42,041 nt of DNA from Desulfobacteraceae bacterium (GTDB lineage: Bacteria > Desulfobacterota > Desulfobacteria > Desulfobacterales > SKZT01), in the NCBI GenBank assembly GCA_011389745.1, contig JAABTQ010000029.1, positions 1 to 42,041 of the forward strand. The letters are read 5' to 3'. Each line of letters opens with the position of its first letter. Position 1 is the first letter of the stretch. Below are positions 1 through 31,800 of the stretch, one piece after another. The notes under the pieces were generated by a model, which was given only the letters and a program-made list of their open reading frames with translations, had not been told where the DNA came from and searched no databases. Both the position numbers and the translations under genes were made by a program.

Positions 1-56
1 GCATCATTGCCTTCATCGGCTACAGGCAATTGAAGAAGTTGATGGGTAACACATGA
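1..56 (+). CDS. YqjE-like membrane protein, 3' end only
   Basis: Only the last 17 codons and the TGA (54-56) lie in the window; the reading frame begins at base 3 and the protein ends in KKLMGNT. The DNA from 1 to 77 is identical to 8257-8333, the end of the complete YqjE-like gene at 7956-8312, so this is the tail of a second copy. The family (Phage_holin_3_6 / DUF1469) consists of small inner-membrane proteins often encoded beside YqjD/ElaB-type proteins, as here. The rest of the gene lies upstream of the window. Confidence 0.8.
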   Translation, partial: IIAFIGYRQLKKLMGNT

Positions 57-86
57 CAGAGGAAACACTGGAAAGGAGGACTGAAA

Positions 87-491
87 ATGTCTGAAAGAGA
101 GCATTTAAGTAACGAAAAGGAAGCGGATGTCGAACGCAGTTCCGAAGATATACGCCGGAATATAGCCAAAGAAAAAGAGAATATTTCCCAGAAAGTCGAC
201 CAAATCAGCGAGCGGATAAAAGAGAAGCTCGATTGGCGCGAATATGTGAAGGAATCTCCATACCTTGCGATAGGGGTTGCTGCCGGCCTTGGTTATATCG
301 GCTCAATGGTATTGATACCACGCACCACTCCAATGGAACGAATCATGGATTCCATTGCCGGGGAAGTTCGTGGCTCACTCGGTGGCCTGATTCCCGGAGC
401 CGCCGGCCCCCCCGGCCTGATCAAAATGTCCCTGCTGGGTGTTACCACGAAGGTTGCCGCCGGGTGGTTAAAGAATGCAGTTTCGAGATAA
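87..491 (+). CDS. Small DUF3618/YqjD-like membrane-anchored protein
   Basis: 134 residues. Residues 1-50 are charged and helical, probably coiled coil. They are followed by a DWREYVKESPYLAIGVAAG stretch (about 49-67) and a glycine-rich hydrophobic segment to about residue 78. A second moderately hydrophobic glycine-rich region lies at 92-128. The arrangement of a helical arm, a short SPYLAIGVAAG-type anchor and a Gly-rich membrane segment resembles the DUF3618 and ElaB/YqjD families, whose members tether to the inner membrane and are stress or stationary-phase associated; the exact function is unknown. A strong AAAGGAGG at 73-79 lies 7 nt before the ATG. It sits between the YqjE-like tail and the YqjD-like gene at 535, probably in one operon. 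This gene is missing from the duplicated locus near 8334. Confidence 0.75.
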   Translation: MSEREHLSNEKEADVERSSEDIRRNIAKEKENISQKVDQISERIKEKLDWREYVKESPYLAIGVAAGLGYIGSMVLIPRTTPMERIMDSIAGEVRGSLGGLIPGAAGPPGLIKMSLLGVTTKVAAGWLKNAVSR

Positions 492-534
492 GGACTATAT
501 ATCATCAATGTTTAAATTTTACCAGGAGGATAAC

Positions 535-885
535 ATGACTATAGATAAGAAAAAATACTGGGCCCCTGAACAGAAAATTGGAAAAGAGTCCGGCAGCGAT
601 AGTACTGCTGATCAGACAATGTATGAACGAGGTGCGGAAGCATACGGGCAAGCGGAGCAGGCGGTAAGTGATGCATATGATAAAACGTCTGAGAAGGTAA
701 GTGAAACATATGAGAAGGCTAAGGTTTATAGTAGTGATAATCCGGGCAAAACCATTCTTATCGCATTAGGGATAGGAGTAGGCTTGGGCCTTCTTCTGGG
801 CGCAAGCACTCATCGCTCGGGCAGCCGGTTTGCGCAACCTGTGGTTCATGCACTGTCCGACATTGCATCAGAGTTATTCGGTTAA
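535..885 (+). CDS. YqjD/ElaB (DUF883)-like membrane-anchored protein
   Basis: 116 residues from the ATG at 535, chosen because AGGAGG (524-529) lies 5 nt upstream; an in-frame ATG at 475 overlaps the previous gene and has no good site. Residues 1-65 are hydrophilic with helical segments rich in Ala, Glu and Lys (YERGAEAYGQAEQAVSDAY). Residues about 68-90 hold a DNPGKTILIALGIGVGLGLL membrane anchor. The C-terminal tail is short. This is the layout of ElaB/YqjD/DUF883 proteins, inner-membrane proteins reported to bind ribosomes in stationary phase in E. coli. About the first 60 codons are close in sequence to the start of the fusion gene at 8374, which has lost this anchor. Confidence 0.75.
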   Translation: MTIDKKKYWAPEQKIGKESGSDSTADQTMYERGAEAYGQAEQAVSDAYDKTSEKVSETYEKAKVYSSDNPGKTILIALGIGVGLGLLLGASTHRSGSRFAQPVVHALSDIASELFG

Positions 886-1063
886 GGCGGTCTGTTATGA
901 GGCTACCCACTTGTTGTATCAGGGTTGGGTATGTGTATTTACCTTGGGCAACACGGTTCGCTCCATCAAGGCACCCTGTTTTTTTTAAAGTCATTTCGGG
1001 TTATACAAAAACCCTTGTAATCCAGGGGGCGGACCTTCATACCAACACTAAAGGAGAAGAAAT

Positions 1064-1516
1064 ATGAATGAATTTTTTAAGATGCTCAAAAAAGACCATG
1101 AGGAAGTAAAGGGAATTCTAGGAAAGCTTAAAGAAACCAAAGAGAAAGAATCGAGTAAGCGGGAAGATTTATTCCAAAAGCTCAGGGAAGAGCTGGTGCC
1201 TCACATGAAGGCCGAAGAAAGTGCTTTCTATCCGCCTCTAATGGAGAAGAAAGAGGCCCGCGAAGATGCTATGGAGGGAATAGAGGAGCATCATGTGAGT
1301 GAACTGGTCTTAAAAGAACTTGAAAAAATGCCGAAGGATGAGGATAAATGGGGAGCCAAGGTGGGTGTGTTTAAGGAGCTCGTGGAGCACCATATCAAGG
1401 ACGAGGAAAGTAAGCTGTTTAAAAGCGCGGAAAAGGCTTTGGACGCGGACGAATTTAAAAAAATCATGAAACAGTTTGAACAGGACAAGGACAAAAACAA
1501 AAAGAAATTGAAGTAA
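1064..1516 (+). CDS. Hemerythrin-like HHE domain protein
   Basis: 150 residues, all helical and very rich in Lys and Glu. Candidate di-iron ligands follow the HHE pattern: His12 (DHEEV), His47/Glu51 (HMKAE), His76/His77 (EEHH) and His110/Glu114 (HHIKDE). Hemerythrin-like proteins bind O2 or NO, or store iron, in the cytoplasm; in anaerobes they are often linked to oxygen sensing or scavenging. An AAAGGAG-type site precedes the ATG and a strong terminator follows, so the gene may be a single unit. It lies directly before the catalase gene, consistent with a shared role in oxidant defence. The lysine-rich tail (DKDKNKKKLK) is probably disordered. The fold assignment is firm; the ligand (O2, NO or iron) cannot be decided. 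Confidence 0.85.
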   Translation: MNEFFKMLKKDHEEVKGILGKLKETKEKESSKREDLFQKLREELVPHMKAEESAFYPPLMEKKEAREDAMEGIEEHHVSELVLKELEKMPKDEDKWGAKVGVFKELVEHHIKDEESKLFKSAEKALDADEFKKIMKQFEQDKDKNKKKLK

Positions 1517-1535
1517 ACACAACGTCAATGAGGAG

Positions 1536-1572
1536 AAGAGGCCCCGTCTAGTTTCGTGAGGGCCTCTTTTTT
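1536..1572 (+). terminator. Rho-independent terminator after the hemerythrin gene
   Basis: A 9-bp perfect stem (AAGAGGCCC at 1536-1544 with GGGCCTCTT at 1560-1568) runs into a T-rich tract. It separates the hemerythrin gene from the catalase gene, whose ribosome site follows at once at about 1576, so part of the hairpin may also lie in the catalase leader. Confidence 0.85.
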
Positions 1573-1589
1573 CCTTAAGGAGAACGATC

Positions 1590-3707
1590 ATGAGCAAAGA
1601 TAAGATTAAGAGGAATTTGGGAAAAGGTAAGCAGGAAAAAGGGTCTGCTTCAAAGGGAGACACACAAGAAGTGGCTGCCGGAGGTGAAGTGCACCAGATC
1701 GCCGGAGGAGAGCACCCGGCGCTCACTACGAACCAGGGTGTGCCAATTTCAGATAATCAAAACTCTCTCAAAGCCAATCCGCGCGGCCCGACGCTGCTGG
1801 AGGATTTCATCCTTCGCGAAAAAATCACGCATTTCGACCACGAACGTATTCCCGAGCGTATCGTTCACGCGCGCGGGACGGGCGCGCATGGGTTCTTCGA
1901 GCTGACCGAGTCGTTGAAGCAGTACACCACCGCCAGGATACTCACGGAGGTCGGGGAGAAGACGCCCGTGTTTACGCGTATGTCGAACGTCGCCGGCGGC
2001 GCGGGCTCGATCGACACCCCGCGTGACGTACGCGGCTTTGCCGTCAAGTTTTATACCAAGGAAGGCAACTGGGACCTGGTCGGCAACAACATCCCGGTCT
2101 TCTTCATCCAGGATGCCATCAAGTTCCCCGACCTCGTCCATGCCGTAAAAATGGAGCCCGACCGCGGCTTTCCGCAAGCAGCAAGCGCCCACGACACCTT
2201 CTGGGATTACATTTCTCTCACCCCTGAATCGATGCATATGGTGATGTGGATCATGTCCGATCGCACCATTCCGCGTTCGTTAAGGATGATCGAAGGCTTC
2301 GGTGTGCATAGTTTCCGGTTGATTAACGACTCAGGAGAATCAACTTTCGTCAAATTCCACTGGCGTCCCAAGCTCGGCCTGCAGTCCACCATCTGGGACG
2401 AAACCGTTAAAATTTCCGGCGCTGATCCGGACTTCCACCGCCGCGACATGTTCGAAGCCATAAAATCGGGCAGTTTCCCGGAGTGGGAATTTGCGGTCCA
2501 GCTCTTTACGCAGGAGGAAGCGGACAATTTTCCGTTCGATCATCTCGACCCGACCAAGCTGATTCCTGAAGAACTGGTGCCCTTGAAAGTGATCGGCCGC
2601 ATGGTGCTGGATCGCTGGCCGGAAAACTTTTTCGCGGAAACCGAACAGGTTGCTTACTGCCCCGGTAATATTGTGCCGGGCATCGATTTCTCCAACGATC
2701 CACTTTTGCAAGGCCGCTTGTTCTCCTATATCGACACGCAGTTGTCTCGCCTGGGTACGCCCAATTTCCATCAGATCCCGATCAACGCGCCCAAGTGCCC
2801 GTTCGGCAACCTTCAACGCGACGCACAGATGCAGATGGCGCCACAGGCGGGCCGTGTTAACTATGAACCCAATTCCCTGTCTGAAAACTCACCACGCGAA
2901 ACGCCGGTCAAGGGCTTTAAATCCGCCGGAATTACCGAAACCGGAGACAAAAGCCGCATCCGTGCCGAGAGTTTCGCCGACCACTACAGCCAGGCGCGGC
3001 AGTTCTATATCAGCCAGACCGCCTATGAACAGGCGCATCTTGCTTCAGCTTTAGTGTTTGAGCTTTCCAAGGTCGATCATGTTCACGTGCGGGAGGCGAT
3101 GGTTGGGCACCTGCGACATATCGATGAAGACCTTGCCGGGCGGGTTGCCAAGGGGCTTGCCTTGGAGAAGATGCCGGATGCGCCTGAGGCCGCAGCTCCA
3201 GTTCAGGAGTTGGAACCTTCGCCTGCATTGCAGCTCATCGGCAAAATGAAAGACACCCTCATGGGACGCATGGTCGGCATCCTGATCGCGGATGGATCAG
3301 AAGGCGACGTGATCAAAAAGATTCGAAAGGCCGCAGCCGATGCGGGCGCCGCCGTGAAGATCGTCGCACCCAAAGTTGGTGGTGCAAAACTTGCGGATGG
3401 GTCGATGCTGCCGGCTGACGGACAATTGGCGGGTATGCCTTCTGTGCTATTCGATGCTGTTGCAGTCATCCTCTCCGAGGAAGGTGCAAAAGCACTGTCG
3501 AAAGAAAGCGCCGCGATCGATTTTGTGCGCGATGCGTTCGGCCATCTCAAGGCAATCGCCGTCGACAAGGGCGGTCAGGCGCTATTGAAAACAGCGAACG
3601 TTGGACAAGATGCGGGCGTCGTGGATGCCAACGACAAAGAGGCATTTATTGCCGCGGCCAAGACACGCCAATGGGACCGGGAAAAGTTGGTGCGAATATT
3701 GGCCTGA
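1590..3707 (+). CDS. katE: Large-subunit (clade 2) monofunctional heme catalase
   Basis: 705 residues, the usual size of HPII-type catalases (about 700-750). It breaks down H2O2 to water and O2 in the cytoplasm. Visible motifs are the distal His93 in [12 protein letters not shown], Asn166 in GNNIPVFF, and the proximal heme-ligand Tyr380 in RLFSYIDTQ, with Arg376 four residues before it. After the catalase core (about 60-560) comes the extra flavodoxin/DJ-1-like domain of large catalases (about 572-700, starting at [12 protein letters not shown]). The first 45 residues are a low-complexity extension, as in KatE. An AAGGAG site precedes the ATG. Its GC-rich third positions in the core contrast with the AT-richer small genes around it, which may point to a different history. 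Confidence 0.95.
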
Positions 3708-3855
3708 CCGCTGGTTCCGTAAAGCTCCGGCGAATGTCCATACCGTCCAATTAAAAAAGTTTCTAAAAGTTGATACCTGTAGGTGCGGATGAATCCACAC
3801 CTGCAAGTTACCGGTTTTAAGACTTTTAATTAGACGCCAATAGGCTTTCGCCGGA

Positions 3856-4377
3856 ATGTCTAGAAAAACTAAAACATCAAGTAAAACAAACGCATATATA
3901 AATTCTATGAATATTATCGATAAGCAACGGGTAAAAAAACGACTGGACCGACTGGCCTGGTACCTGGATAATTCAATTCCACTGCCGGGATTGAATTTCC
4001 GAGTCGGAATTGACCCTCTGGTCGGGCTTATTCCAGGGATTGGCGACACCATCGGCGCGATCATGTCCAGCTATATACTTTCCGAAGCCGCCCGTCTCGG
4101 AGCACCCAAGACCATTTTGCTGAAAATGGCATTTAACATCGCCGTTGATGCCTTAGCAGGGGCGGTGCCAATTTTGGGAGATCTCTTTGATTTCGGCTGG
4201 AAAGCAAATCAGCGCAACGCGAAGATATTAGGGGGTTACCTGGACGATCCGCGTGAAACTGTGGCTAGCAGCCGCCTGTTTGCATGGGTTCTGATTGGGT
4301 CGCTCATTGGACTCTTTATATTAGTCGGCCTGATTGGTTATCTGCTGGTTTATGCACTCTGGAACAGCAGACAATAA
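3856..4377 (+). CDS. DUF4112 membrane protein
   Basis: 173 residues from the ATG at 3856. Met18 (3907) is an equally plausible start; neither has a clear ribosome site. The core (about 24-130) shows the DUF4112 signature: RLDRLAWYLDNSIPLPG, then FRVGIDPLVGLIPGIGDTIG and AVPILGDLFDFGWKANQRN. A strongly hydrophobic helix at about 147-168 is a membrane segment. The biochemical role of the family is unknown; members are common in environmental bacteria and often sit near other envelope-stress genes, as here. It is followed after 5 bp by a miniature element. Confidence 0.85.
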   Translation: MSRKTKTSSKTNAYINSMNIIDKQRVKKRLDRLAWYLDNSIPLPGLNFRVGIDPLVGLIPGIGDTIGAIMSSYILSEAARLGAPKTILLKMAFNIAVDALAGAVPILGDLFDFGWKANQRNAKILGGYLDDPRETVASSRLFAWVLIGSLIGLFILVGLIGYLLVYALWNSRQ

Positions 4378-4382
4378 TACTT

Positions 4383-4487
4383 AGTGCCTGAACGAAAAGT
4401 TTCTAATTCCTCTCCCATCGGGGGAGGGTCAGGGTGGAACCCTCCCCCAGCCCCTCCCAGTGGGAGGGGAGTTTTCGTTCAAGCACT
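4383..4487. mobile_element. MITE-like element, family 1, copy 1 (105 bp)
   Basis: The ends are inverted repeats AGTGCCTGAACGAAAA and TTTTCGTTCAAGCACT (one mismatch). The element is flanked by a 4-bp direct repeat ACTT (4379-4382 and 4488-4491), the expected footprint of transposase-driven insertion. The interior is GC-rich and palindromic (gggaggg / ccctccc). There is no coding capacity. It lies directly upstream of the Pmp3 gene, whose AGGAGG starts 13 bp after the element. Confidence 0.8.
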
Positions 4488-4516
4488 ACTTAAGAACTTT
4501 AGGAGGAAATGAACTC

Positions 4517-4675
4517 ATGGATCTGGTAAGAATAATTATAGCGATACTGCTCCCCCCTTTAGGCGTTTTTCTTCAGGTAGGCTTTCGCGGCGCTTTCTGG
4601 CTGAATATTCTTCTGACTCTTTTAGGCTACATTCCCGGCATCGTGCACGCGGTCTGGATCATTGCCAAACGCTGA
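4517..4675 (+). CDS. Pmp3/YqaE family small membrane peptide, copy 1
   Basis: 52 residues (MDLVRIIIAILLPPLGVFLQ to WIIAKR). It has two membrane helices with the family signatures LLPPLGVFLQVG and LGYIPGIVHAVWII. Pmp3/YqaE (UPF0057) proteins are proteolipids of the plasma membrane linked to membrane potential, cation and stress tolerance. The ATG at 4517 is supported by AGGAGG at 4501-4506. It differs from copy 2 (16885-17043) by one residue, Arg24 here against Gly24 there. Its upstream region is occupied by a miniature element, so its native promoter may have been displaced. Confidence 0.9.
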   Translation: MDLVRIIIAILLPPLGVFLQVGFRGAFWLNILLTLLGYIPGIVHAVWIIAKR

Positions 4676-4686
4676 GTAAAGTAGTC

Positions 4687-4746
4687 CTTAAGTTGAGGGA
4701 TTCCGATGACATATAACCGTCGTACCGGCTTTCGCCGGTATGACGT
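4687..4746. repeat. REP-like palindrome (ACCGGC...GCCGGT)
   Basis: The hairpin ACCGGCTTTCGCCGGT is at 4724-4739. The left flank (about 4687-4722) is close to the reverse complement of 10694-10731, so the repeated unit is larger than the hairpin. Related palindromes lie near 10470, 10630, 10680, 24847 and 27473-27546. Confidence 0.7.
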
Positions 4747-4823
4747 TGGAAGATTTATAAAATGAAATCGCTCAAATTAGGCAGTACATTTCAGAGAAGA
4801 GATGGAGAAAAAAAGACGTAGCC

Positions 4824-6044
4824 ATGAACAACATCCCGAAAAACCCAAAAAAAGGGATGAAGGAGCATTCCATTGCTTTCTATGTTATCCTGGCGGCGGC
4901 CCTGGTTACTTTTATCCAAACATTCACCTTGCTGTCTCCCATTCTGTTGTCATTTATACTCATTATGCTGATTACGCTCTCAGTCAACCCTGCGGTTTCA
5001 TGGATGCGGTCTCTGACGGGTAGCAGAAAAGGTGCGACGGCGGTAGTCACTACAACCATAATGGTGGGCGTAGTATTGACGGGCTGGGCTTTCGTCGGGA
5101 CAATGAAGAAATCATACATAAACTTATCCAAAGAGCTGCCCGTTTACTGGGAACGTCTCCAGAAACCTCTGATCAAAATAGAGCAAAAAGCATTGCTCTC
5201 CGAGGAAAAACTCCAGGCGGAAGTCACCACTGAAATGAGAAACGCAGCGGCAGCGGAAGGCAAACCCCAACCTGACGTGCAAACTACCGAGCCGGCTCCG
5301 CCCATCTCCCCGGATGAGTCGGGATCCATTCGGACCCGGTTGAGCGAAATGTTACACGGCTTGATAGGCAGCTTCACGGCTATGGCGTTCAACGGGGCTC
5401 AGATGTTGGTCGTTTTAGTGACGGTTCTCTTCGGAGTGATATTTACCCTGATGGATCCCCGTCCGATCATCAGGAGTATATTTTTAATAGTACCCGAACG
5501 CCACCACGACCGGACTCTGATTATCATGCAACGCATTGGAAAGTTCGTCCCGTGGTGGGCAGGGGCAACGCTGGCGGGAATGGTGGCGGTTGGTCTGCTT
5601 GTGTTTCTGTTCATGTGGCCGATCTTTGAATTTATGGACGCCCTTTTTCTCGGGTTGATCGCCGGCGTCATGGCAGCTGTTCCTTTTGTGGGCCCGGTTC
5701 TCAGCGTTGTGCCCGCGCTCTTGCTCGCTGTCGGCATAGGAGGCATGACCCCGCTGTGGGTTTTGCTGGCCTACATTGTTGTCCAGGCTTTGGAAGGCAA
5801 TGTGATTCAACCTTTAGTGATGGCGCAAGGCATAAAATTGCACCCGATCGCTTTGATATTTTCGATGCTACTGTGTGTGGCGGCCTTTGGCGTACTAGGT
5901 GTTCTGGTTGCAGCCCCTTTGGCTACCATTGCGAATATTCTGCACGATGAACTTTATCGCAAGCGTTTTATTCCCACGGTAACAGATGGTGACCTGGACG
6001 ATCTGGCCCGAAAGGCACTCAACGAAAAATACACCTCCAAGTGA
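4824..6044 (+). CDS. AI-2E family (PerM/YdiK-type) permease
   Basis: 406 residues. After a short basic N-terminus there are two or three membrane helices (about 17-92). A hydrophilic, helical extracytoplasmic segment (about 95-185, with a Pro/Glu-rich stretch) follows, then at least five more helices (about 188-380). Family features are the WWAGATLAGMVAVGLL segment and the PFVGPVLSVVPALLLAV, QALEGNVIQPLVMAQGIKLHP and FGVLGVLVAAPLATI motifs near the C-terminus. Family members include TqsA, YdiK and Na+/H+ antiporter homologues; the substrate cannot be read from sequence. No neighbour indicates quorum sensing, so a general solute or ion role is as likely as AI-2 export. The ATG at 4824 is the first good in-frame start. 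Confidence 0.85.
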   Translation: MNNIPKNPKKGMKEHSIAFYVILAAALVTFIQTFTLLSPILLSFILIMLITLSVNPAVSWMRSLTGSRKGATAVVTTTIMVGVVLTGWAFVGTMKKSYINLSKELPVYWERLQKPLIKIEQKALLSEEKLQAEVTTEMRNAAAAEGKPQPDVQTTEPAPPISPDESGSIRTRLSEMLHGLIGSFTAMAFNGAQMLVVLVTVLFGVIFTLMDPRPIIRSIFLIVPERHHDRTLIIMQRIGKFVPWWAGATLAGMVAVGLLVFLFMWPIFEFMDALFLGLIAGVMAAVPFVGPVLSVVPALLLAVGIGGMTPLWVLLAYIVVQALEGNVIQPLVMAQGIKLHPIALIFSMLLCVAAFGVLGVLVAAPLATIANILHDELYRKRFIPTVTDGDLDDLARKALNEKYTSK

Positions 6045-6123
6045 TCCCGGAAAGCGATGAAAACCAGGATCTCATCTTTCACTTTAGCTGAAGGTTTGTC
6101 CAGCATCTCAACAATACAAAAAC

Positions 6124-6281
6124 GGTCATATTTGACAATAGGGTTAAATATAACCCTTTTTATGTTGAAATTTATGACGGTTCCATAAATACTTTTTGAA
6201 CTGATTATAATGATTATGGTGAAAAATCAAATAGATAAATTACATGTCCCAGAGTGTTGGAGACCTGGCACAAAAATTGAA
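6124..6281 (+). promoter_or_regulatory. Sigma-54-type promoter region P1 with upstream dyads
   Basis: TGGCAC (6266-6271), five A, then TTGAA (6277-6281) matches the -24/-12 consensus TGGCAC-N5-TTGCW except at one position. About 142 bp upstream is GGTCATATTTGACA (6124), followed by the perfect dyad GGGTTA-AATA-TAACCC. The same arrangement recurs at 16475-16623 and 22371-22519. The first gene downstream is the GAF protein at 6804, more than 500 bp away across two repeat elements. Confidence 0.65.
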
Positions 6282-6330
6282 TATTTAAAATTAGAATAAT
6301 CAACACGCGATCACAAAAAGCCCGGCATTC

Positions 6331-6519
6331 TAGTAACTCCTCAAAAGTCCCCCTTTGAAAAAGGGGGATTTAGGGGGATTTTTAAAAGGGCATCAGTTTG
6401 TCAAATCCCCCCCGGCCCCCCTTTTTTAAAGGGGGGAGAAGTTACTTGGCGGCTTTTCAAAGGGGGTAAGCAGTTAATTTTCGGTTTGGGCACGGCGTAG
6501 CCGGGTGGAGCCTTCTAAG
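6331..6519. repeat. Family 2 palindromic repeat, copy A
   Basis: The core runs from AGTAACT (6332) to AGTTACTT (6440-6447), with internal hairpins of C and G runs around CTTTGAAAAAG and a TTTGTCAAATCC joint. It is followed by a TTTGGGC...GTGGAG tail ending at the next element. The same unit occurs at least eight more times in the window, whole or in part. Confidence 0.8.
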
Positions 6520-6520
6520 T

Positions 6521-6652
6521 AGTGCTTGAACGAAAAGTCCGTATTTCCCTCTCCCATAGGGGAAGGGTCAGGGTGGGGGTTAATAATATCAGTAACTTAT
6601 CTTTCCCTCTCCCAGCCCCTCCCAGTGGGAGGGGAGTTTTCGTTCAAGCACT
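6521..6652. mobile_element. MITE-like element, family 1, copy 2 (132 bp)
   Basis: Its terminal inverted repeats AGTGCTTGAACGAAAA and TTTTCGTTCAAGCACT are perfect over 16 bp. It is flanked by the 4-bp duplication AAGT (6517-6520 and 6653-6656), the complement of the ACTT flanking copy 1. The interior resembles copy 1 plus about 27 bp. It lies immediately after family 2 copy A, in the leader between promoter P1 and the GAF gene. Confidence 0.85.
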
Positions 6653-6803
6653 AAGTAACAAGGTTCCGTCACACCGGCGAAGACCCATTGGCGCCAAGTT
6701 AGGGGTCTGTCAAGCATCGTTTCATGGCTCGGGAATAATCCTGATCATGTCATTGTAGGGAGCGACTCGCCTTGGTTCAATGTGAAGAAAGAGAGACGGT
6801 GCA

Positions 6804-7565
6804 ATGAGTATAGTTCCATCTGCGGAAGCAAAGCTTAATGCGGTAATACGGGCGGCACGTGCAATTCTGGAAAAGCAGAACTTCACCGACGCAGCACGTG
6901 CGATCTTTGATCGCTGTCGAGAGATGACTGGTGCGGCCTCGGGCTATGTTGCGCTTTTGAACGAGAAAGGAGAGGAAAACGAGGTTCTGTTCCTTGAGGC
7001 CGGCGGACTGCCGTGCACGGTTGATCCAGAACTGCCCATGCCAATTCGGGGACTGCGGGCTATAGCTTATGAGACACAGCGCGCCGCGTACAACAACGAT
7101 TTTATGAACAGCAATTGGGTGGAGTACATGCCGGAAGGGCATGTCCTCCTACGAAACGTCATGTTTGCGCCTTTGAACCTTGAAGGGAAGACTGTGGGTA
7201 TACTTGGTCTTGCCAACAAGCAGTCAGATTTCACGGATGAAGATGCTGAGATCGCGACCGTCTTTGGAGAACTGGCAGCAATCGCACTGGCTAACAGCCG
7301 GTACCTGGACCTGCTCAGAGAGAAGAATAACGCACTGGAACATGCGTTGTCCGAGATCAAGACCCTTCGTTCCATCTTACCCATGTGCTCTCATTGCAGG
7401 AAGGTGCGTGACGACGAAGGAGTATGGTCACGATTCGAAACTTATGTTACGCAGCATACGGGAACCCATTTCAGCCATGGGCTTTGCCCCGACTGCATCC
7501 GGAAACTGTATCCGGAGGAGGCTGAGGAGATCATAGAACAACTGAATGCACCCGATAAGGGTTAA
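6804..7565 (+). CDS. GAF domain sensor protein with C-terminal four-Cys motif
   Basis: 253 residues. Residues about 10-165 form a GAF domain (ARAIFDRCREMTGAASGYVA; VMFAPLNLEGKTVGILGLAN; FTDEDAEIATVFGELAAIAL). A short coiled coil (168-190) links it to a C-terminal module with Cys195/Cys198 (LPMCSHCRKVRDD) and Cys228/Cys231 (HGLCPDCIRKLYPE), with His223 and His225 between the pairs, a likely zinc-type site. This Cys module is common at the ends of deltaproteobacterial GAF, PAS and receiver proteins. No output enzyme domain is present, so it may sense a small molecule and act through a partner. It is the first gene after promoter region P1. Confidence 0.85.
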   Translation: MSIVPSAEAKLNAVIRAARAILEKQNFTDAARAIFDRCREMTGAASGYVALLNEKGEENEVLFLEAGGLPCTVDPELPMPIRGLRAIAYETQRAAYNNDFMNSNWVEYMPEGHVLLRNVMFAPLNLEGKTVGILGLANKQSDFTDEDAEIATVFGELAAIALANSRYLDLLREKNNALEHALSEIKTLRSILPMCSHCRKVRDDEGVWSRFETYVTQHTGTHFSHGLCPDCIRKLYPEEAEEIIEQLNAPDKG

Positions 7566-7627
7566 CCGCGCCGCAACGCTCTGCGCGCAACCCTCGCGGG
7601 TGATTCAGAGCATTTAAAGAAAATGAT

Positions 7628-7834
7628 ATGAAGAATGGCACAGAAATTGTCTTAATAGTCATATTGGCTGTGCTGCTTGTCGGTGTCCTGCCCACATGGC
7701 CCCACAGTTCGAACTGGGGGCTATTTCCCAGCGGCGGAATCGGCTTGGCCATTCTGATCATATCAGGCGGGTATAAGAAGTTTATTGCTATCCGGAACAC
7801 TGAGCAGAGAAATGAAGAATTGGACAACGGATAA
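7628..7834 (+). CDS. DUF3309-like small membrane protein
   Basis: 68 residues. A hydrophobic helix (7-23) is followed by the family signature LPTWPHSSNWGLFPSGGIGL (22-41) and a second helix (38-47), then a charged tail. This matches DUF3309, tiny two-helix membrane peptides of unknown function often found in stress-gene neighbourhoods. It lies 62 bp after the GAF gene. No strong ribosome site is visible before the ATG; the start is fixed by the short upstream region and the conserved N-terminal helix. The 68-residue length is slightly longer than typical family members because of the polar C-terminus. Confidence 0.75.
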   Translation: MKNGTEIVLIVILAVLLVGVLPTWPHSSNWGLFPSGGIGLAILIISGGYKKFIAIRNTEQRNEELDNG

Positions 7835-7955
7835 GACTGTAGAAACCTCGGCAGAGTCCCGGAATTCGAAAAAGTTAACCGGCTTCGAAATGTCAAACCA
7901 TTATTGCTGATAAGATACAAAATTTTTAGGACGCAGGTAAGGAGGTGGTTTTTCA

Positions 7956-8312
7956 ATGAGCAATAAAGTGGAAAAAAAGGACACTATAAAAAAACGAGAC
8001 TCCTTCAGTGAACTCTTAGGACAGCTTGCCGACAACTCAGCCACTTTGGTTCGCGACGAAATTGAGCTGGTGATCCAGGGAATTCGCGAAAAGATGAGGG
8101 CCGGCCGCAGTGGAGTCCTAACAGTCTGTATTGGAGTGGGCATCGGTTTTGTCGCCTTCATGTGTCTTTGCGCTGCATTGATCGTTGGGCTCACTTCTTA
8201 TATGACCCTGATTATGGCGTCCCTTGTCACTGGAGCTGCGCTTGCTTTAGTTGGCGGCATCATTGCCTTCATCGGCTACAGGCAATTGAAGAAGTTGATG
8301 GGTAACACATGA
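7956..8312 (+). CDS. YqjE-like inner-membrane protein (Phage_holin_3_6 / DUF1469)
   Basis: 118 residues. An amphipathic N-terminal region (15-50, SFSELLGQLADNSATLVRDEIELV) is followed by two membrane helices (about 53-78 and 82-107) and a basic tail. This is the typical layout of the YqjE family, small membrane proteins encoded with YqjD in many bacteria; their role is unknown, and the phage-holin name is historical. GGAGG lies 11 nt before the ATG. The last 56 bp are identical to the gene tail at 1-56, showing that this locus is duplicated. Confidence 0.85.
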   Translation: MSNKVEKKDTIKKRDSFSELLGQLADNSATLVRDEIELVIQGIREKMRAGRSGVLTVCIGVGIGFVAFMCLCAALIVGLTSYMTLIMASLVTGAALALVGGIIAFIGYRQLKKLMGNT

Positions 8313-8373
8313 CAGAGGAAACACTGGAAAGGACTATATAACCATCAATGTTTAAATTTACCAGGAGGATAAC

Positions 8374-8949
8374 ATGAATATGGAAAAGAATAAATACGAG
8401 GCCCCTGAACAGAAAAGTGAAAAAGAGTCCGGCAGCAATAGTAATGCTGATCAGACAATTTATGAACGAGGTGCAGAGGCTTACAGGCAAGCAAAGCAGG
8501 TGGTAAGTGACGCTTATGAAAAAACGTCTGAGAAGGTACGTGAAACATATGAACAAAAGGAGTCATTTATGAAAACAAATGAAAAGTCAGTGGCTATGTA
8601 CGGTGTCGTTCCGGCATCGGAGATCATCGGTGAAGCGGTGGTCAATCCCGAGGGTGAAAGTGTGGGCAAGATCCTGGAACTGGTGATCGATGCCGGAAAG
8701 AACCGCGTGGTCTACGCAGTGCTCTCATTCGGCGGCTTCATGGGCATGCGCAACAAGCTGTTCGCCATTCCATGGGAAGCTTTCGAATTCTCCGAAACCG
8801 AAACAAAACTCATTCTCAATGTGGACAGGGAGAAGCTGGAAGCCGCTCCAGGGTTTGAGAAGGGCGATAAATGGCCGGATTTCAAGGACACACTATGGGG
8901 AGAAAGCATCTACAACTACTACAACTATGCCCCTCCCTGGAAGCCGTAG
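8374..8949 (+). CDS. Fusion: YqjD-like N-terminus joined to PRC-barrel protein
   Basis: 191 residues. Residues 1-60 are the N-terminal half of a YqjD/DUF883-like protein, closely matching residues 1-60 of the gene at 535. At GAAACATATGA the match stops and the frame runs into a PRC-barrel protein (about 66-191: YGVVPASEIIGEAVVNPEGE, VGKILELVIDAGKNRVVYAV, NKLFAIPWEAF). The membrane anchor of the first part is lost. AGGAGG precedes the ATG at 8374. Met66 (8569) has its own AAAAGGAG 6 nt upstream, so the PRC-barrel protein could also be made alone at about 126 residues. PRC-barrel proteins of this type are small, often stress-induced and of unknown partner. Confidence 0.8.
   Translation: MNMEKNKYEAPEQKSEKESGSNSNADQTIYERGAEAYRQAKQVVSDAYEKTSEKVRETYEQKESFMKTNEKSVAMYGVVPASEIIGEAVVNPEGESVGKILELVIDAGKNRVVYAVLSFGGFMGMRNKLFAIPWEAFEFSETETKLILNVDREKLEAAPGFEKGDKWPDFKDTLWGESIYNYYNYAPPWKP
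8555..8562 (+). promoter_or_regulatory. Internal ribosome binding site for the PRC-barrel part
   Basis: AAAAGGAG lies 6 nt before the in-frame ATG at 8569 inside the fusion gene. It looks like the original start signal of a free-standing PRC-barrel gene that was retained when the upstream YqjD-like gene was fused in frame. Confidence 0.65.
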
Positions 8950-8953
8950 AGAC

Positions 8954-10348
8954 ATGATCAGGACAATCACTGATAAAAAAACCTTAATACACCACCTGGC
9001 GACCAAATTGCGTCGACAGGCGGAGGAAAGAGCCGACAAGATCACTGAAAGCCTGGAAGTATTGTCGCCCGCAGAAATTCGACAGACACTTCACGAACTG
9101 CAAGTGCATCAGATTGAGTTGGAGATGCAGAACGAGGAACTGCTTGCGGCGCAGGAGGCATTGGACGCATTGCGGGCACGGTATTTCGACCTTTACAACC
9201 TGGCGCCGGTCGGCTATTGCACTCTTAATGAACAACTGCTTGTTCTGGAAGCCAACCTCACCGCTGCAACCCTTCTTGGCACGGACAGGAGCACACTGGT
9301 TATGCAGCCGCTTAGCCGATTCATACACAAAGAGGACCAGGACATTTACTACCTGTGCAACAAAAGACTCCTTGAGACCGATTCGGCAAGCTCGGGGGAA
9401 GGCGATGAATCGTGGACATGTGAACTGCGTATGGTAAAAATGGACGGAACACTATTCTGGGTCCGGCTGGAAACAGTCGCTGGGATAGATACTGACGGCG
9501 CACCCGTGAGGCGTCTCCTGATTAGCGACATTAACGATAAAAAGAGGGTAGAGGCGGAAACGGCCGAACTGGAGGCCCAGAACCGACAGCTCCAGAAGGC
9601 GGAAAGTCTTGGCCGCATGGCCGGCGCCATTGCACACCATTTCAACAACCAGCTCCAGGTTGTGACAGGAAACCTCGAGCTGGCTATCATGAACCTCCCT
9701 CCGGGATCAGATACGATTCATAACCTCACTGACGCCATTAAAGCATCCAACAGAGCGACTGAAGTGAGCAGTCTGATGTTGACCTACCTGGGACACAGTC
9801 GCGGAAAGCACAAACCCATAGATTTTTCCGAAATTTGCCGCCGAAGCCTGGTTCTGCTTCAGGCCGCTTTCCCGGATAGACCTCTGCTTAGAACCGATTT
9901 TCCATCGTCAGGTCCTGTCATTCTTGCGAACGAAGGCCAGATCATGCAGGTGCTGACCAACCTGGTCACCAATGGATGGGAATCCGCGGATGGTAACAGA
10001 CCAGACATCGGCCTGACCATCAAAACAGTTTCTCAGGCCGAAATTCTTGCCTTAAAGTCTTTTCCCATCGACTGGCAGGCTCGGGACATTGCCTACGCCT
10101 GCCTGGAAGTTTCGGATGCGGGCAGCGGAATCCCTGAAAAAGATATCGAGAAGATCTTTGATCCGTTTTTCTCCACCAAGTTCACCGGTCGTGGTCTGGG
10201 CCTGCCCGCGGTTCTTGGGATTTTACGGGCACACCAGGGAGTGGTCACGGTGGAAAGTAAACTGAACCAGGGAAGTATCTTTCGGGTCTTTTTTCCAATG
10301 TCGGCTGAAGAAGTCTCCCGGCACCCGGACAAAATTTTGGAACCATGA
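8954..10348 (+). CDS. PAS domain sensor histidine kinase
   Basis: 464 residues from the ATG at 8954, 4 nt after the stop of the PRC-barrel fusion. An upstream extension of the frame only overlaps that gene, and there is no strong ribosome site, so coupling is likely. Residues 10-75 are helical, with a HELQVHQIELEMQNEEL segment. A PAS domain follows at about 76-195. Then come a HisKA-type dimer region with His228 (AIAHHFNNQLQ), an N box (LTNLVTNGWESA), a G1 box (VSDAGSGIPEKDIEKIFDPFF) and a G2 box (GRGLGLPAVLGILRAHQG). It is soluble, with no membrane helix. The N-terminal and PAS module closely resembles that of the sigma-54 activator at 14468. No receiver-domain partner is encoded nearby. Confidence 0.9.
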   Translation: MIRTITDKKTLIHHLATKLRRQAEERADKITESLEVLSPAEIRQTLHELQVHQIELEMQNEELLAAQEALDALRARYFDLYNLAPVGYCTLNEQLLVLEANLTAATLLGTDRSTLVMQPLSRFIHKEDQDIYYLCNKRLLETDSASSGEGDESWTCELRMVKMDGTLFWVRLETVAGIDTDGAPVRRLLISDINDKKRVEAETAELEAQNRQLQKAESLGRMAGAIAHHFNNQLQVVTGNLELAIMNLPPGSDTIHNLTDAIKASNRATEVSSLMLTYLGHSRGKHKPIDFSEICRRSLVLLQAAFPDRPLLRTDFPSSGPVILANEGQIMQVLTNLVTNGWESADGNRPDIGLTIKTVSQAEILALKSFPIDWQARDIAYACLEVSDAGSGIPEKDIEKIFDPFFSTKFTGRGLGLPAVLGILRAHQGVVTVESKLNQGSIFRVFFPMSAEEVSRHPDKILEP

Positions 10349-14471: not shown

Positions 14472-16087
14472 GCAACAAAGGTAAAATACCCGGTTCCGCT
14501 GCCGACCCTTTAAAAGGCTCAGGGCAGGATCTGCGCAAACGGGCCGAAGAAAAAGCCAGGCAAAATTGTGCTCAGGTGCAAAAAGACCTTATGGCCCTGT
14601 CGCCCGAAGAGAGCCGCCGGAAGATTCACGAGCTTCGGGTTCACCAAATCGAACTGGAGATGCAAAATGAAGAGTTGCGCCGGACCCAAACGGAGCTGGA
14701 TGCTTCCAGGGAGCGTTATTTCAATCTCTACGACCTTGCACCGGTGGGCTATTGCACCGTCTCCGAAAAGGGGCTGATACTGGAAGCCAACCTCAGCGCC
14801 GCCACATTGTTAAATGTGGCCCGAGGTAAGCTGGTCAGGCAGCCGTTCACCCGATTTATCCTGAAGGAGCACCAGGACATCCACTACCTTCACCGCAAAC
14901 ACCTTTTTGAAACCGGCGAGCCGCAGACATATGAGTTACAGATGGTGAAACAGGATAAAACGTCATTCTGGGTGCGTCTGGATACCACCGCCGCAAAGGA
15001 TACTGACGGCACGCCGGTGTGCCGTGTCGTGATCATCGACATCACCGAACATAAGCGGGTGGAAGAGGTGGAAAACGCAATTTCCGAAATAAAAAGGAAC
15101 AAAGACCTGCTGGAAATTGAAAGAGGCTATCTGCAAGATGAAATTAAACTGTTATACAACCATGAGAACATTATCGGTCAAAGCGACGGACTCAAATATG
15201 TGCTTTATAAAGTTGAACAAATTGCCGCTACTGATACTAATGTATTGGTTCTCGGCGAAACCGGAACCGGCAAGGAGCTGGTTGTCCGGGCTATTCACAG
15301 CAATAGCTTGCGAAAAAATCGAACCCTGGTGAAAGTAAATTGCGCCGCACTTCCACCAAACCTAATTGAAAGCGAATTGTTCGGTCATGAAAAAGGCAGT
15401 TTCACAAGTTCTCAAGCCAGATTCCTTGGGCGATTTGAGGTTGCAAACGGCGGCACCCTTTTTCTGGATGAAATTGGAGAATTGCCCCTGGATCTGCAGG
15501 CAAAGCTGCTCAGGGTGGTGGAGGATGGAGAATTTGAGCGGTTGGGCAGTACCGACACCATCAAAGTTGACACACGCATTGTTGTCGCAACAAATCGTAA
15601 TCTGGAGGAGGAAGTCCGCAATGGCCGTTTCCGTGAAGATCTCTGGTATCGGATAAATATTTTTCCGATTACCATGCCGCCCCTTCGGGACCGCATGGAT
15701 GACATTGCGCTTCTTGTGGATTTTTACGTCAAAAAGATTTCCAAAAGACTGGGTAAGACCATTGAAATCATTCCGAAAAGCGTCATGAGCACTTTACAGA
15801 ATTATCACTGGCCTGGAAATGTGAGGGAGTTACAAAACGTCCTTGAACGTGCGGTGCTAAACTCGTCAGGTCCTACGTTGCATCTGCTTGATGGACTCAA
15901 AAAGCCGTCCATGGATTTATATGCAAGCAAAAAAACCCTGGAAGAAGTTGAGCGGGACTATATTGTAAAGACACTTGAACGGACCGAATGGAAAGTCGGC
16001 GGAAAAGACAGCGCGTCTGAAATATTAGGACTCAACCGCAGCACCCTGCGCGCTCGTATGCGCAAGCTCGACATCAGAAAACCGTAA
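14468..16087 (+). CDS. PAS-containing sigma-54-dependent transcriptional activator
   Basis: 539 residues. Residues 20-83 are helical (HELRVHQIELEMQNEELRR). A PAS domain spans about 84-197 and a coiled coil 198-230. The AAA+ domain (about 233-465) has Walker A GETGTGKE (263-270) and Walker B LFLDEIG (331-337). The Fis-type helix-turn-helix is at about 492-536 (DSASEILGLNRSTLRARMRK). The sigma-54-contacting loop is GSFTSS (310-315) in place of the usual GAFTGA; Phe and Thr are kept, but Ala2, Gly5 and Ala6 are Ser. There is no receiver domain, so activity is probably controlled through the PAS domain or by a partner such as the co-translated CheB/CheR. A promoter region of the type it would act on starts about 390 bp downstream. 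Confidence 0.93.
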   Translation: MSNKGKIPGSAADPLKGSGQDLRKRAEEKARQNCAQVQKDLMALSPEESRRKIHELRVHQIELEMQNEELRRTQTELDASRERYFNLYDLAPVGYCTVSEKGLILEANLSAATLLNVARGKLVRQPFTRFILKEHQDIHYLHRKHLFETGEPQTYELQMVKQDKTSFWVRLDTTAAKDTDGTPVCRVVIIDITEHKRVEEVENAISEIKRNKDLLEIERGYLQDEIKLLYNHENIIGQSDGLKYVLYKVEQIAATDTNVLVLGETGTGKELVVRAIHSNSLRKNRTLVKVNCAALPPNLIESELFGHEKGSFTSSQARFLGRFEVANGGTLFLDEIGELPLDLQAKLLRVVEDGEFERLGSTDTIKVDTRIVVATNRNLEEEVRNGRFREDLWYRINIFPITMPPLRDRMDDIALLVDFYVKKISKRLGKTIEIIPKSVMSTLQNYHWPGNVRELQNVLERAVLNSSGPTLHLLDGLKKPSMDLYASKKTLEEVERDYIVKTLERTEWKVGGKDSASEILGLNRSTLRARMRKLDIRKP

Positions 16088-16884: not shown

Positions 16885-17043
16885 ATGGATCTGGTAAGAA
16901 TTATAATTGCGATACTGCTTCCCCCTTTAGGCGTCTTTCTTCAGGTGGGCTTTGGCGGTGCTTTCTGGTTGAATATTCTTCTGACCCTTTTAGGCTACAT
17001 TCCCGGCATCGTTCATGCGGTCTGGATTATTGCCAAACGCTAA
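16885..17043 (+). CDS. Pmp3/YqaE family small membrane peptide, copy 2
   Basis: 52 residues, identical to copy 1 at 4517-4675 except Gly24 for Arg24. It has two membrane helices with LLPPLGVFLQVG and LGYIPGIVHAVWII. AAGGAG lies 7 nt before the ATG at 16885. Pmp3/YqaE proteins sit in the plasma membrane and are linked to membrane-potential, salt or cation stress. It is the first gene after promoter region P2, with family 2 copy D in its leader. It is too short for common ORF length cut-offs but clearly real from the conserved sequence and the paralog. Confidence 0.92.
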   Translation: MDLVRIIIAILLPPLGVFLQVGFGGAFWLNILLTLLGYIPGIVHAVWIIAKR

Positions 17044-17174: not shown

Positions 17175-19260
17175 TAAATGCGATAAAGCAATGTCTTACT
17201 TTTGCAGCGACCACTGTCTGCAGAGGTTATTATCGCCGCATACCATAGCTACTCCCGCAATGGTGTCTCAGTTTAAGGGCGTCTACACCTGCCCGATGTG
17301 CCCGGAGATCGAGCAGGACGAACCAGGCGATCGCCCAAAGTGCAGCATAACACTGGAACCGAAAAACCTGACAGCTGACACTGATGCTGCAAAAGACGCC
17401 GAGATTCGAGACATGACCATGCGCCTCTGGATTGCCACCGCACTGACGTTGCCGGTGGTTATGCTGGCAATGGCTTACCTGATCCCGGGGCCGGCCAGGC
17501 AATCATGGGTGGATAGTCAGATCTCTCGCTGGCTGCAATTTGCGCTTACGACACCCGTGGTCCTTTGGGCGGGTTGGCCGTTCTTCCGTTATGGCTGGCG
17601 CTCTGTTGTGACTCGTCATTTGAACATGTTCACTCTGATTTCTATTGGTGTGGGCGCAGCTTTCCTTTTTAGCACCGTGGCAATTCTCATGCCCGATTTG
17701 TTCCCCCACTCGATGCAACACGAAGGCAAGGTCGCCATTTACTTTGAGACCGCAGCAGTAATCATTGTGCTGGTGCTTTTAGGTCAGGTGTTCGAACTTC
17801 GGGCCTGCAATCGAGAATGCATGGCCATCAAAGCGTTGCTTAACCTTTTACCGCTTATGGCGCGACAAGTCACAGCAGGAGGCGATCAGGAAGTTCCGCT
17901 GGATCGGGTGAAAGTCGGCGATCAACTGCGTATTGTTCCAGGTGACAAGGTGCCTGTAGACGGCCTGGTGGTCCAGGGTCACTCCAGTGTGGAAGAGTCC
18001 ATGATAAACGGTGAACCGTTCCCGGTGGAAAAGACCGTCGGTGACAAGGTGATGGGGGGCACCGTCAATGGTTCCGGCAGTTTCATCATGCGTGCAGAGC
18101 GGGTCGGCAGCAGGACGGTTCTCGGGCAGATGGTCAACATGCTTGCGGAAGCCCAGCGAAGCCGTGCGCCTATTCAAAACCTTGCCGACAAGGTCACAAC
18201 CATCTTCGTGCCGGTGGTGCTGGTGCTTTCGGTGCTCACTTTTGTCCTCTGGATATGGCTTGGGTCGGAACCAAAGCTAGCCCACGCCATCGTCAATGCC
18301 ATGGCGGTCCTCATCATTGCCTGCCCTTGCGCTCTCAGTCTGGCGGCGCCAATGTCCATCATGGTCGGGGTCGGACGCGGTGCACAGGAAGGTGTATTGG
18401 TGAAAAACGCTGAGGTGCTCGAACGGCTGGAGAAGGTCACCATGATCGTCATGGACAAGACAGGCATTCTCAAGGAGGGCAAACCCAAGCTCATAGATGT
18501 CCTATCCATCGGTGGTTTTGAAACGACGGAAATTTTGCGTCTTGCCGCCTCACTGGAGCAGAGTAGTGAACACCCTTTCGCTGAAGCGATCGTGCAGGGT
18601 GCAAGGGACCAGGGAATCGATTTAGCGGCTGTTAAAGACTGTCGTTCTGTGAAAGGGGTCGGTCTTCTCGGTTCTGTTGAGAATCGTGCGGTGATGATCG
18701 GCACACCGGATTTCCTGCGCAATGAAAAGATTGCCGGCCTGGAGCAGCTCGAAGCTTCGGCCGTGAAGCTTCAGGAACAGGGGAAGACCGCAATCTTTGT
18801 TGCCATCGATGGGAAACCTTCGGGAATTCTCACCGTAGCTGACCCGATCAAATCCACCACACCCGATGCCATCATTGAGCTCCGCTCTTTAGGGTTGGAA
18901 TTTGTAATGCTCAATGGTAACGGCAACAGCGAAACACCCGACCTCAGCGAAGCGGAAATCCGCATTGCCATGGGTACCGGCACGGATGTGGCGATGGAAA
19001 GCGCGGGCATCACCCTCGTGAGAGGCGATCTGCGCGGCATTGTACAGGCTGTCCGCCTCAGTCGTGCCACAATGCGAAACATCCGGCAGAACCTGGTATT
19101 CGTTTTTTTTTATAGCGCATTGGGTATTCCGGTGGCAGCCGGTGTGCTTTACCCGTTCTTTGGCCTCCTGCTCAGCCCGATCATTGCCGGCGCCGCCATG
19201 AGCCTGAGTTCGGTCACGGTCATCAGCAATGCTTGGCGCCTGCGAAAAGTGAGGCTTTGA
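17152..19260 (+). CDS. P1B-type metal ATPase, degenerate and probably inactive
   Basis: 702 residues, in the CopA-like family that exports Cu or related metals using ATP. Preserved: CPC (391-393) in the metal path, the phosphorylation site Asp435 (MDKTG), SEHPFAEA (472-479) and the C-terminal AMGTGTDVA. Altered: the actuator TGE is NGE (286-288) and DKTGT is DKTGI. The TGDN and GDGxNDAP hinge motifs are absent; at about 586-598 the sequence reads [13 protein letters not shown], with roughly 50 residues missing against the family. The N-terminus is the remnant of a YHS domain ([11 protein letters not shown]) plus a heavy-metal-binding motif with Cys/His changes (CPMCP, GDRPKC). The frame is open throughout, so this is either a decaying gene or a repurposed membrane protein. 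Confidence 0.85.
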
Positions 19261-28872: not shown

Positions 28873-31800
28873 ATGATGCACCACGGAGAAACCATTCTCG
28901 CCAAGGTTTTTCGTTTCCCGAAACGTTTTCGCAAGAATTCCCTCGCCCAAAAGAACGTCGGCAACGACATGCCGCTTCGGTCGGAGTTGTTCAGTTCCTC
29001 TCAAATGGAGGAGCACGGAAAGACCGTGGCAGGCTTGCACACCTTGGGTGAGGTTCATGGTGCGGAGAGGCTTTTGACGAGGCTTGCTCAAAACGAGGAA
29101 TTGCTTTTTGATGTCCGCAATCTTTTGACCAGGGCCGTTAAGGCGAACCGCAGGATTATTCCGGCAGCGGAATGGTTGCTCGACAATTTCTATCTTATAG
29201 AGGAACAGATTCTGGCGGCAAAGAACCTTTTACCGAAAGGCTACGCCAGGAAACTTCCGCGTTTGAAAGACGGCCCATCAAAAGGCCTTCCCCGTGTTTA
29301 CGACATTGCGCTGGAGATGATATCCCACAGCGATGGCCGGGTGGATTCGGAGAGCCTCTTCAGGTTCGTTGCCGCCTATCAGACGGTTACAACGTTGCAG
29401 TTGGGAGAATTATGGGCAATTCCCATCATGCTTCGCCTGGCGCTGATTGAGAATCTCAGGCGGATTTCAGCCCGAATTGCCATTGACAGGATTGACCTTG
29501 ACCTGGCCGATTATTGGGCTGACATAATTTCAGAGACGGCGGAAAAGGACCCGAAGAAGTTGATCATCAGGGTTGCCGACATGGCACGATCAAACCCGCC
29601 CATGGTCAGTTCCTTTATTGCGGAGCTTGCCCGTCGTCTCCAGGGCCAGGGCTCCGCTCTTGCACTGCCTCTAGCCTGGATCGAGCAGCAACTCACAGAA
29701 TCCTACCTGACCATCGACCAACTGGTTCAATCGGAGAATCAGCAGCAAGCGGCTGATCAGCTTTCCATAGGCAACAGCATTGGAAGCCTCCGATTCCTGA
29801 GCGACATGGACTGGCGCAAATTCGTGGAAACAATGAGCGCCGTTGAACAAATCCTGCTGGAGGACCCTTCCGGAATCTATGAAAGGATGGATTTTAATAC
29901 CCGTGATCAATACCGTCATATCGTGGAGGAGGTTGCAAAAAAGAGCAGATTCTCCGAAAAGGAGGTGGCCCGTGAAGCGATTGGCCTGGCCCAACAAAAC
30001 ACCGCAGGGAAAAATGGTGGTAACCGGGCTGATCACGTGGGTTTTTACCTCATCGATAAAGGGCTTCCCCAGCTGGAAGAGCGGGTGAGGGTCAGGCCGA
30101 CGGCTATTGACATCATTCAAAGAATCGGTCGCAGGCATTCTTTGTTGTTTTATCTTGGCTCGATTCTTATCCTCGCAGTGATTATTTCTGCCGGTCTGCT
30201 GGCAGAGGTCCGTCCAGCCGGCATGGATGGCCTGCTGCTCTGGATCGTCGGTGTTGTCGTTCTTCTGTCGGTAAGCCAGCTGGCCATAGCTGTGGTCAAT
30301 TTATTTGCGACACGTCTTGCCAAACCGTTTCCGCTGCCACGAATGGATTTTTCCGAAGGAATACCTTCCGAATTATCTGCCATAGTTGTGGTTCCCTCCA
30401 TGCTTTCAAGCACAGAGAATGTTGAAAAGCTGGTGGGTGATCTGGAAGTCCGGTTTCTGGCAAACCGGGACATAAACCTGCGATTTGGCCTGCTGACTGA
30501 CTTTAAGGATGCCCATGAGGAAAAACTCGCCGGGGACGATCCGCTATTATTGCTGGCCCGGCAAAGAATAGAAGAATTGAACGGGAAATACAGGGAAAAC
30601 GGTGATACTTTCTTCCTTTTTCATCGCCCCCGTCAATGGAATCAGCAGGAACGTGTCTGGATGGGCTACGAGAGGAAGCGGGGAAAGCTTGCAGAACTGA
30701 ATTTGCTTCTCCGTGGCGGTTCCGGGAGCGGTTTTTCTCTCATTGTGGGAAATATCAGGGTTTTACAGGAAGTGAAGTATGTCATCACCCTTGACACGGA
30801 CACAGATCTGCCGCGCGATTCGGCATGGCAGCTCGTGGGTGCAATGGCCCATCCCTTAAACCGTCCTCGGTACGATGAGAACAAAGGTCGCATCGTATCC
30901 GGATATGGCATCTTACAACCACGGGTAGCCGTAAGTCTGCCCGGAACGAACAGGTCACGGTATGCCCGTATGTGCAGTGTTGATGCGGGCGTCGATCCCT
31001 ACACCCGTGTTGTCTCTGATGTGTACCAGGACATCTTTGGCGAAGGTTCATACATCGGCAAGGGCATTTATGATGTTGACGCATTCGAGAAGGTGCTCAA
31101 AGACCGTTTCCCGGAGAACCGGATTCTCAGCCATGATCTTATCGAAGGATGCTATGCACGGTCCGGGCTGATTAGCGATGTGCAGTTATACGAAGAGTAC
31201 CCGTTGCATTACAATGCGGACGTAAGCCGTCGGCGGCGCTGGATCCGAGGGGATTGGCAAATTCTGAGATGGATTTTCCCAGGCGTTCCCGGTTCCGATA
31301 GGTATTTTACAAAAAATCCGCTTTCCATATTATCCCGCTGGAAGATATTCGACAACCTTCGGCGCAGCCTATCGCCTATAGCATTATGCATATTTCTCCT
31401 TCTCGGCTGGACCATACTGTGGTCTCCCTGGTTCTGTACTGTGGCGGTTATCGGTATCGTGTTGATTCCTTCCTTGATTAACTCCCTCATGGGTTTTTTC
31501 AATAAATCCAACGAATCACTTATGAGCCAACACCTCACCGGTGCAGTCCGCGCCACCGGCAGATGCTTTGCCCAATCCGTATTTACGCTCGTCTGCCTCC
31601 CTCATGAGGCATTTACCAATGGCACTTCCATGCTGCAAACCTTGTGGCGAATGTTGGTTTCCCGCAGAGGTCTTCTTGAATGGAACCCGTCGGGTGAGGC
31701 CGATCACAAAGGCCGGACGGAACTTGCCGGATATTATCGAAACATGTGGATTGCACCGGTCTTTGCCATGGTGGTAGCAGGTTACCTCGTTTATGCACGA

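Follow-up and report, generated by a model that had tools for sequence, protein, structure and literature searches.

Described Relatives of the Two Parts

In Escherichia coli, the tail-anchored protein YqjD associates with the 30S subunit through its N-terminal part (PMC10746276). Small proteins of a comparable build, in which a helical arm precedes a C-terminal glycine-zipper anchor as in E. coli YqjD and ElaB (DUF883), are encoded by intact gene copies in the window, i.e., the whole stretch of 42,041 nucleotides analyzed here, which is a complete contig (C22) of a 3.6-Mb genome in 80 contigs. As in the E. coli yqjCDEK operon, a YqjD-like gene of this locus adjoins a PF07332 gene, which we take to be of the YqjE type. 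The likeness in sequence stays under all curated cut-offs: the intact copy at 535 reaches 13.9 bits with the DUF883_C model (cut-off 27) and 17.6 bits with the ElaB model (cut-off 139), and the fused protein considered here, which unlike YqjD and ElaB has no anchor, matches neither the DUF883 nor the ElaB models. Since the arm family falls below these cut-offs, one should not ascribe ribosome binding to it.

The second part of the fusion belongs with stand-alone PRC-barrel proteins (PF05239) of about 126 amino acids, such as those of the Desulfobacteraceae MAG SURF_7 (G174) and of G436, a genome placed in another order or class of the phylum; 3htr is a solved relative. The PRC part of the fused protein corresponds to the whole of such a protein, with the same start and the same C-terminal end (WPDF..WGE.IY.YY..PPW), and the difference lies in 65 additional N-terminal residues in frame. 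Fusions of adjacent genes by intergenic deletion, in which co-oriented neighbors lose the first stop codon and the spacer and keep the second start, are a known type of event from which the present case does not differ in principle, although the pairing of arm and PRC barrel is new among the genomes searched, where no other fusion of the two turned up.

The Fused Reading Frame

The fused open reading frame (8374-8949, forward strand) encodes 191 amino acids, of which residues 1-60 form a YqjD-like arm and those from about 61 onward a PRC-barrel protein whose former start is M66. It is preceded by an arm-gene leader (8334-8373) with the Shine-Dalgarno sequence AGGAGG. The arm-derived coding part (8374-8552), which is YqjD2-like and ends before the C-terminal anchor, is 87% identical in nucleotides to the intact gene at 535-885 over 60 codons, or 89% over 224 nt when the leader is included; by alignment count, 45 of the 60 residues are identical (75%), and amino acid identity over residues 1-70 is 66%. 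With an E value of 2.9e-23 in a whole-genome search, this match is far above chance. The common sequence breaks off sharply at 8552, within GAAACATATGA, and homology to the region upstream of PRC genes begins at 8553, which places the joint at 8552-8554. By inspection, no direct repeat or microhomology beyond about 1 nt was seen at the joint.

Directly behind the joint lies AAAAGGAG (8555-8562), the kept Shine-Dalgarno sequence of the former stand-alone PRC gene, whose GGAG ends 6 nt before an ATG at 8569-8571. Both are in frame, the ATG being codon 66 of the fusion, and the former gene (8569-8949) would yield 126 amino acids. These coordinates, the length of the reading frame and the match of the arm had all been given in a first-pass annotation and proved correct when the sequence was read again. 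The predicted RNA structure around the internal start is mild (-10.3 kcal/mol, z -1.2) and forms no clear block, and a scan for sigma-70 promoters and terminators near the fusion gave nothing exceeding background. The internal in-frame start has a Shine-Dalgarno sequence conserved from the stand-alone PRC gene, as in a dual-product gene, and two products from the fused gene are plausible.

In the protein, the PRC domain (PF05239) occupies residues 79-153, with 53 bits against a gathering cut-off of 21.2, and the PRC part gives a profile match to 3htr with an E value of 1.5e-17. The AlphaFold2 model, for which the alignment was restricted to PRC rows, has a mean pLDDT of 74.8 and consists of a disordered start, a helix at 23-68, a weak linker at 68-74, and a PRC barrel from 77. 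The alignment also bears out the earlier statement that the membrane anchor was lost, as the C-terminal glycine-zipper segment of 535 and its relatives has no counterpart in the fusion.

Distribution of the Fusion

Over 700 genomes sampled from the phylum, 72,556 plasmids, and IMG/VR yielded no fused homolog, and searches of relatives and at the level of the class were likewise negative. Two partly overlapping samples, one of 389 genomes from the order and one of 395 from the phylum, gave matches to either half of the fused protein, and a single frame with both halves occurred in the window alone. Two plasmid matches that covered 86-93% of the query were rejected as fusions: the one in Legionella lytica consists of two genes separated by a stop codon, and the one in Microvirga reflects noise in front of a PRC gene that stands alone. 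A literature search for PRC-barrel fusions with an internal start also gave nothing relevant. Among the sampled genomes the fusion is thus restricted to one, suggesting that the fused state is derived; an ancestral or widespread fused form, the finding that was to refute the first-pass reading, did not appear.

The Unfused State in Relatives

In SURF_7, the arm gene and the PRC gene are separate. The former is part of an intact cluster of YqjD1, holin, DUF3618-like, YqjD2, and catalase genes, and the latter stands alone behind a Pmp3-type gene on a different contig. In G436, the order is YqjD1 (440-793), holin (813-1151), DUF3618-like (1204-1599), YqjD2 (1731-2084), and PRC (2476-2859), in which YqjD2 and the stand-alone PRC gene lie on the same strand about 390 bp apart, unfused and collinear with the window. 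Stand-alone PRC genes with a Shine-Dalgarno sequence and start were found in SURF_7, G436, and G400, and these signals align with those of the window, where a stretch of 12 nt at the joint (AACAAAAGGAGT) is common to the window and G400. The ATG at 8569 was thus inherited from a stand-alone gene and is not a chance ATG, in agreement with the earlier reading of a retained start.

For the joint, the best explanation is one deletion of about 550 bp between neighboring genes, which in a gene order of the G436 type would yield the fusion of the window. The earlier proposal of an in-frame fusion by deletion is supported, and relatives keep both genes apart. Against this account stand the occurrence of the fusion in one genome that looks like a short-read assembly, the location of the SURF_7 PRC gene elsewhere in its genome, and the lack of a direct repeat at the joint; as G436 comes from another order or class, its gene order is not proven to be ancestral for the lineage of the window.

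Decay of the Second Operon Copy

The fused gene lies in the second of two copies of a yqjD-yqjE-type operon. Copy 1, with which the contig begins on its left side, is intact and includes the DUF3618/DUF883_C-like gene (87-491, with model scores below the curated cut-offs) and the arm-gene paralog with its C-terminal anchor (535-885, 116 amino acids), after which come hemerythrin and catalase genes. Alignment of copy 2 to the SURF_7 operon shows that YqjD1 is mostly gone, the holin/YqjE gene is whole, the DUF3618-like gene is gone, and the arm gene is fused. The YqjD1 remnant (7810-7945) has a large internal deletion, with relative positions 282-498 of locus L042 missing, and the Phage_holin_3_6 gene (7956-8312, 118 amino acids; PF07332, 62.8 bits) is intact. 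Loss of the DUF3618-like gene by deletion left a joint at AAGGA (8329-8333), a 5-nt match between both ends which falls in the Shine-Dalgarno sequence of the deleted gene. Three deletions within about 750 bp indicate the erosion of a redundant operon copy and not one creative event.

A lineage-restricted fusion within a decaying second copy of this stress operon is therefore our favored reading, and we consider it reasonably probable. The ancestor of copy 2 would have had the order YqjD1, holin/YqjE, DUF3618-like, YqjD2, and PRC-barrel that is still found in G436. One deletion would have taken most of YqjD1 and another the whole DUF3618-like gene, and a third, of the size given above, would have begun at codon 60 of YqjD2 and stopped just short of the Shine-Dalgarno sequence of PRC. 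This third deletion would have cost the arm gene its membrane anchor and stop codon, and PRC the region that in relatives carries its presumed promoter, with PRC then transcribed from the operon of the arm. The earlier description of the locus as gene birth by deletion holds for the deletion, but birth is an overstatement, as the copy is eroding and what is conserved is the long-standing PRC protein.

A related arrangement was seen in G012, a single-contig genome (locus L048), where the pair of DUF3618-like and YqjD2 genes occurs twice (6551-7498 and 17617-18564). The copies, of 948 bp, differ by one mismatch and lie 11,066 bp apart, and the left boundary of the repeat lies in the DUF3618 Shine-Dalgarno sequence, where the window has its AAGGA joint. 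Two equal arm matches had raised the suspicion of an 11-kb tandem duplication, which turned out to be this 948-bp direct repeat.

With regard to the promoter, the intergenic region that separates YqjD2 from PRC in G436 contains the palindrome TGTTGCATGCAACA, followed 121 nt downstream by a sigma-54-like GG-N10-GC site. Such a pair, 113 nt apart, also occurs before PRC in L015 (a Chersky MAG) and before YqjD1 in G471. The pairs lie at L072:2224-2360, L074:2075-2203, and L015:9487-9615, two of them upstream of PRC and one upstream of YqjD1, and possibly represent a shared enhancer-dependent stress regulon. The window lacks the palindrome, and single sigma-54-like matches are frequent by chance (11 in the window). 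If this pair is the promoter of PRC, the deletion would have removed it and brought the gene under the control of the arm's operon.

Constraint and Predicted Products

Constraint on the PRC part is normal. Between the window and SURF_7, dN is 0.115, dS 1.0, and dN/dS 0.12, and the dN to G436 is the same whether PRC is fused (0.169) or stands alone, as in SURF_7 (0.170); no relaxed selection on the fused PRC is visible in these two comparisons, although the fusion may be too young for any relaxation to appear. For the arm pair of 535 and the fused copy, dN/dS is about 0.49, and the fused branch carries seven nonsynonymous and three synonymous changes. The 535 branch is equally nonsynonymous (seven to zero), which argues that the weak constraint on the arm is not peculiar to the fusion.

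It is most likely that the cell makes the 126-residue PRC protein from the ATG at 8569 together with some of the 191-residue protein from the ATG at 8374. The former would carry the conserved function, and the latter would place a cytosolic helix ahead of the barrel.

A variant of the favored reading, which differs from it on the functional side only, regards the arm as passive, i.e., as a 5' leader, translated or untranslated, with the 126-residue PRC protein as the sole relevant product and the open frame as luck, given that about one third of deletions keep the frame. The strong retained Shine-Dalgarno sequence and start, orthologous to those of stand-alone genes, and the contrast between the dN/dS of the arm and that of PRC speak for this variant, whereas the good AGGAGG, start, and open frame that the arm retains, together with the equally nonsynonymous branch of 535, speak against it; we give it slightly less than an even chance.

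Parentage of the Arm

The first-pass annotation regarded 535 as the parent gene, still present 8 kb away, and this part could not be supported. The two arms are about 13% diverged (dS ~0.24), and trees of arm plus leader, in which 535 and the fused arm are the preferred pair (support 64/83), leave it unsettled whether 535, SURF_7, or G264 is nearest to the fused arm, as the pairings fused+SURF_7, 535+G264, 535+SURF_7, and fused+G264 survive with p-AU values of 0.12-0.36. The leader is nearer to SURF_7, to which 8334-8356 is identical (23/23 nt), and 535 differs there. Since an arm gene is already adjacent to PRC in G436, the copy's own yqjD2 upstream of PRC is a simpler source than 535. A direct origin from 535, by duplication and then fusion, would agree with the best identity match (over the 224 nt of arm and leader) and with the preferred tree pair, but the tree support is weak and the arm-PRC neighborhood in G436 needs no such step, so that we regard this origin as rather unlikely. 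More probably, the direct parent was the yqjD2 gene of the second operon copy, and 535 is a close paralog.

Possible Roles of the Longer Protein and Reality of the Joint

The fusion might also be a new functional protein, in which a soluble YqjD-like arm carries the PRC barrel as payload. The modeled helix is intact and passes through the joint, and association of the YqjD N-terminal region with 30S subunits has been reported (PMC10746276), but the arm family shows only a weak relationship to YqjD and ElaB, the fusion occurs in one genome, and the arm is weakly constrained, all of which makes this proposal improbable. A specific form of it, a two-product gene in which the 191-residue protein with its cytosolic arm takes the PRC barrel to ribosomes and the internal start keeps the ancestral free PRC protein, appears quite improbable.

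The assembly deserves attention, as a 77-nt block at 8257-8333 (forward strand) is identical to positions 1-77 at the start of the contig, which probably marks the end of a collapsed repeat at an assembly k-mer of 77, and the genome in its 80 contigs resembles a short-read assembly. The block is exact between the copies, yet the arms differ by 11-14%, and the block differs from SURF_7 by about 14% (63 identities in 73 aligned positions). Identity of the block despite diverged arms indicates a recent exchange or duplication of the sequence that lies upstream of the two copies; probably, a recently duplicated or gene-converted end of the holin/YqjE gene was collapsed at this k-mer. A misjoined contig, with an unreal upstream context of the fusion, is highly improbable, for although an exact repeat of typical de Bruijn k-mer length is suggestive, the joint at 8552 lies in single-copy sequence 219 nt past the block and is unaffected by it, the 77-mer terminates no other contig of the genome, and the flank of copy 2 diverges consistently along its alignment to one SURF_7 operon.

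Significance and Genomic Context

The locus is a clear snapshot of how deletion between neighboring genes creates a fusion reading frame with the old start left in place, with the unfused order kept in a relative. Fusion reading frames can arise as by-products of operon decay, and an annotation of 191 amino acids may then hide a 126-residue product. The fusion raises no new mechanistic question and is a tidy but ordinary bacterial gene fusion.

Dispersed repeats at 6118-6661 (6328-6455 and 6516-6661) have dozens of copies genome-wide, mostly 80-95% identical, and near-identical genes for Pmp3-type small membrane proteins (4517-4675 and 16885-17040; 98% identity in amino acids) represent another duplication nearby. 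The histidine kinase directly after the fused gene (8954-10348) is 57% identical to a second histidine-kinase stretch at 14531-15064. The cassette at 1-10348 is patchy in distribution: a match to P0001 is missing from G001, the other genome of the genus, and from 11 of the 12 genomes of the SURF_7 family. CsbD and DUF3309 genes flank PRC on the Legionella lytica plasmid as well. The cassette looks like a mobile stress island. Elsewhere in the window, an open reading frame of 2907 amino acids extends from 28873 to 37596.
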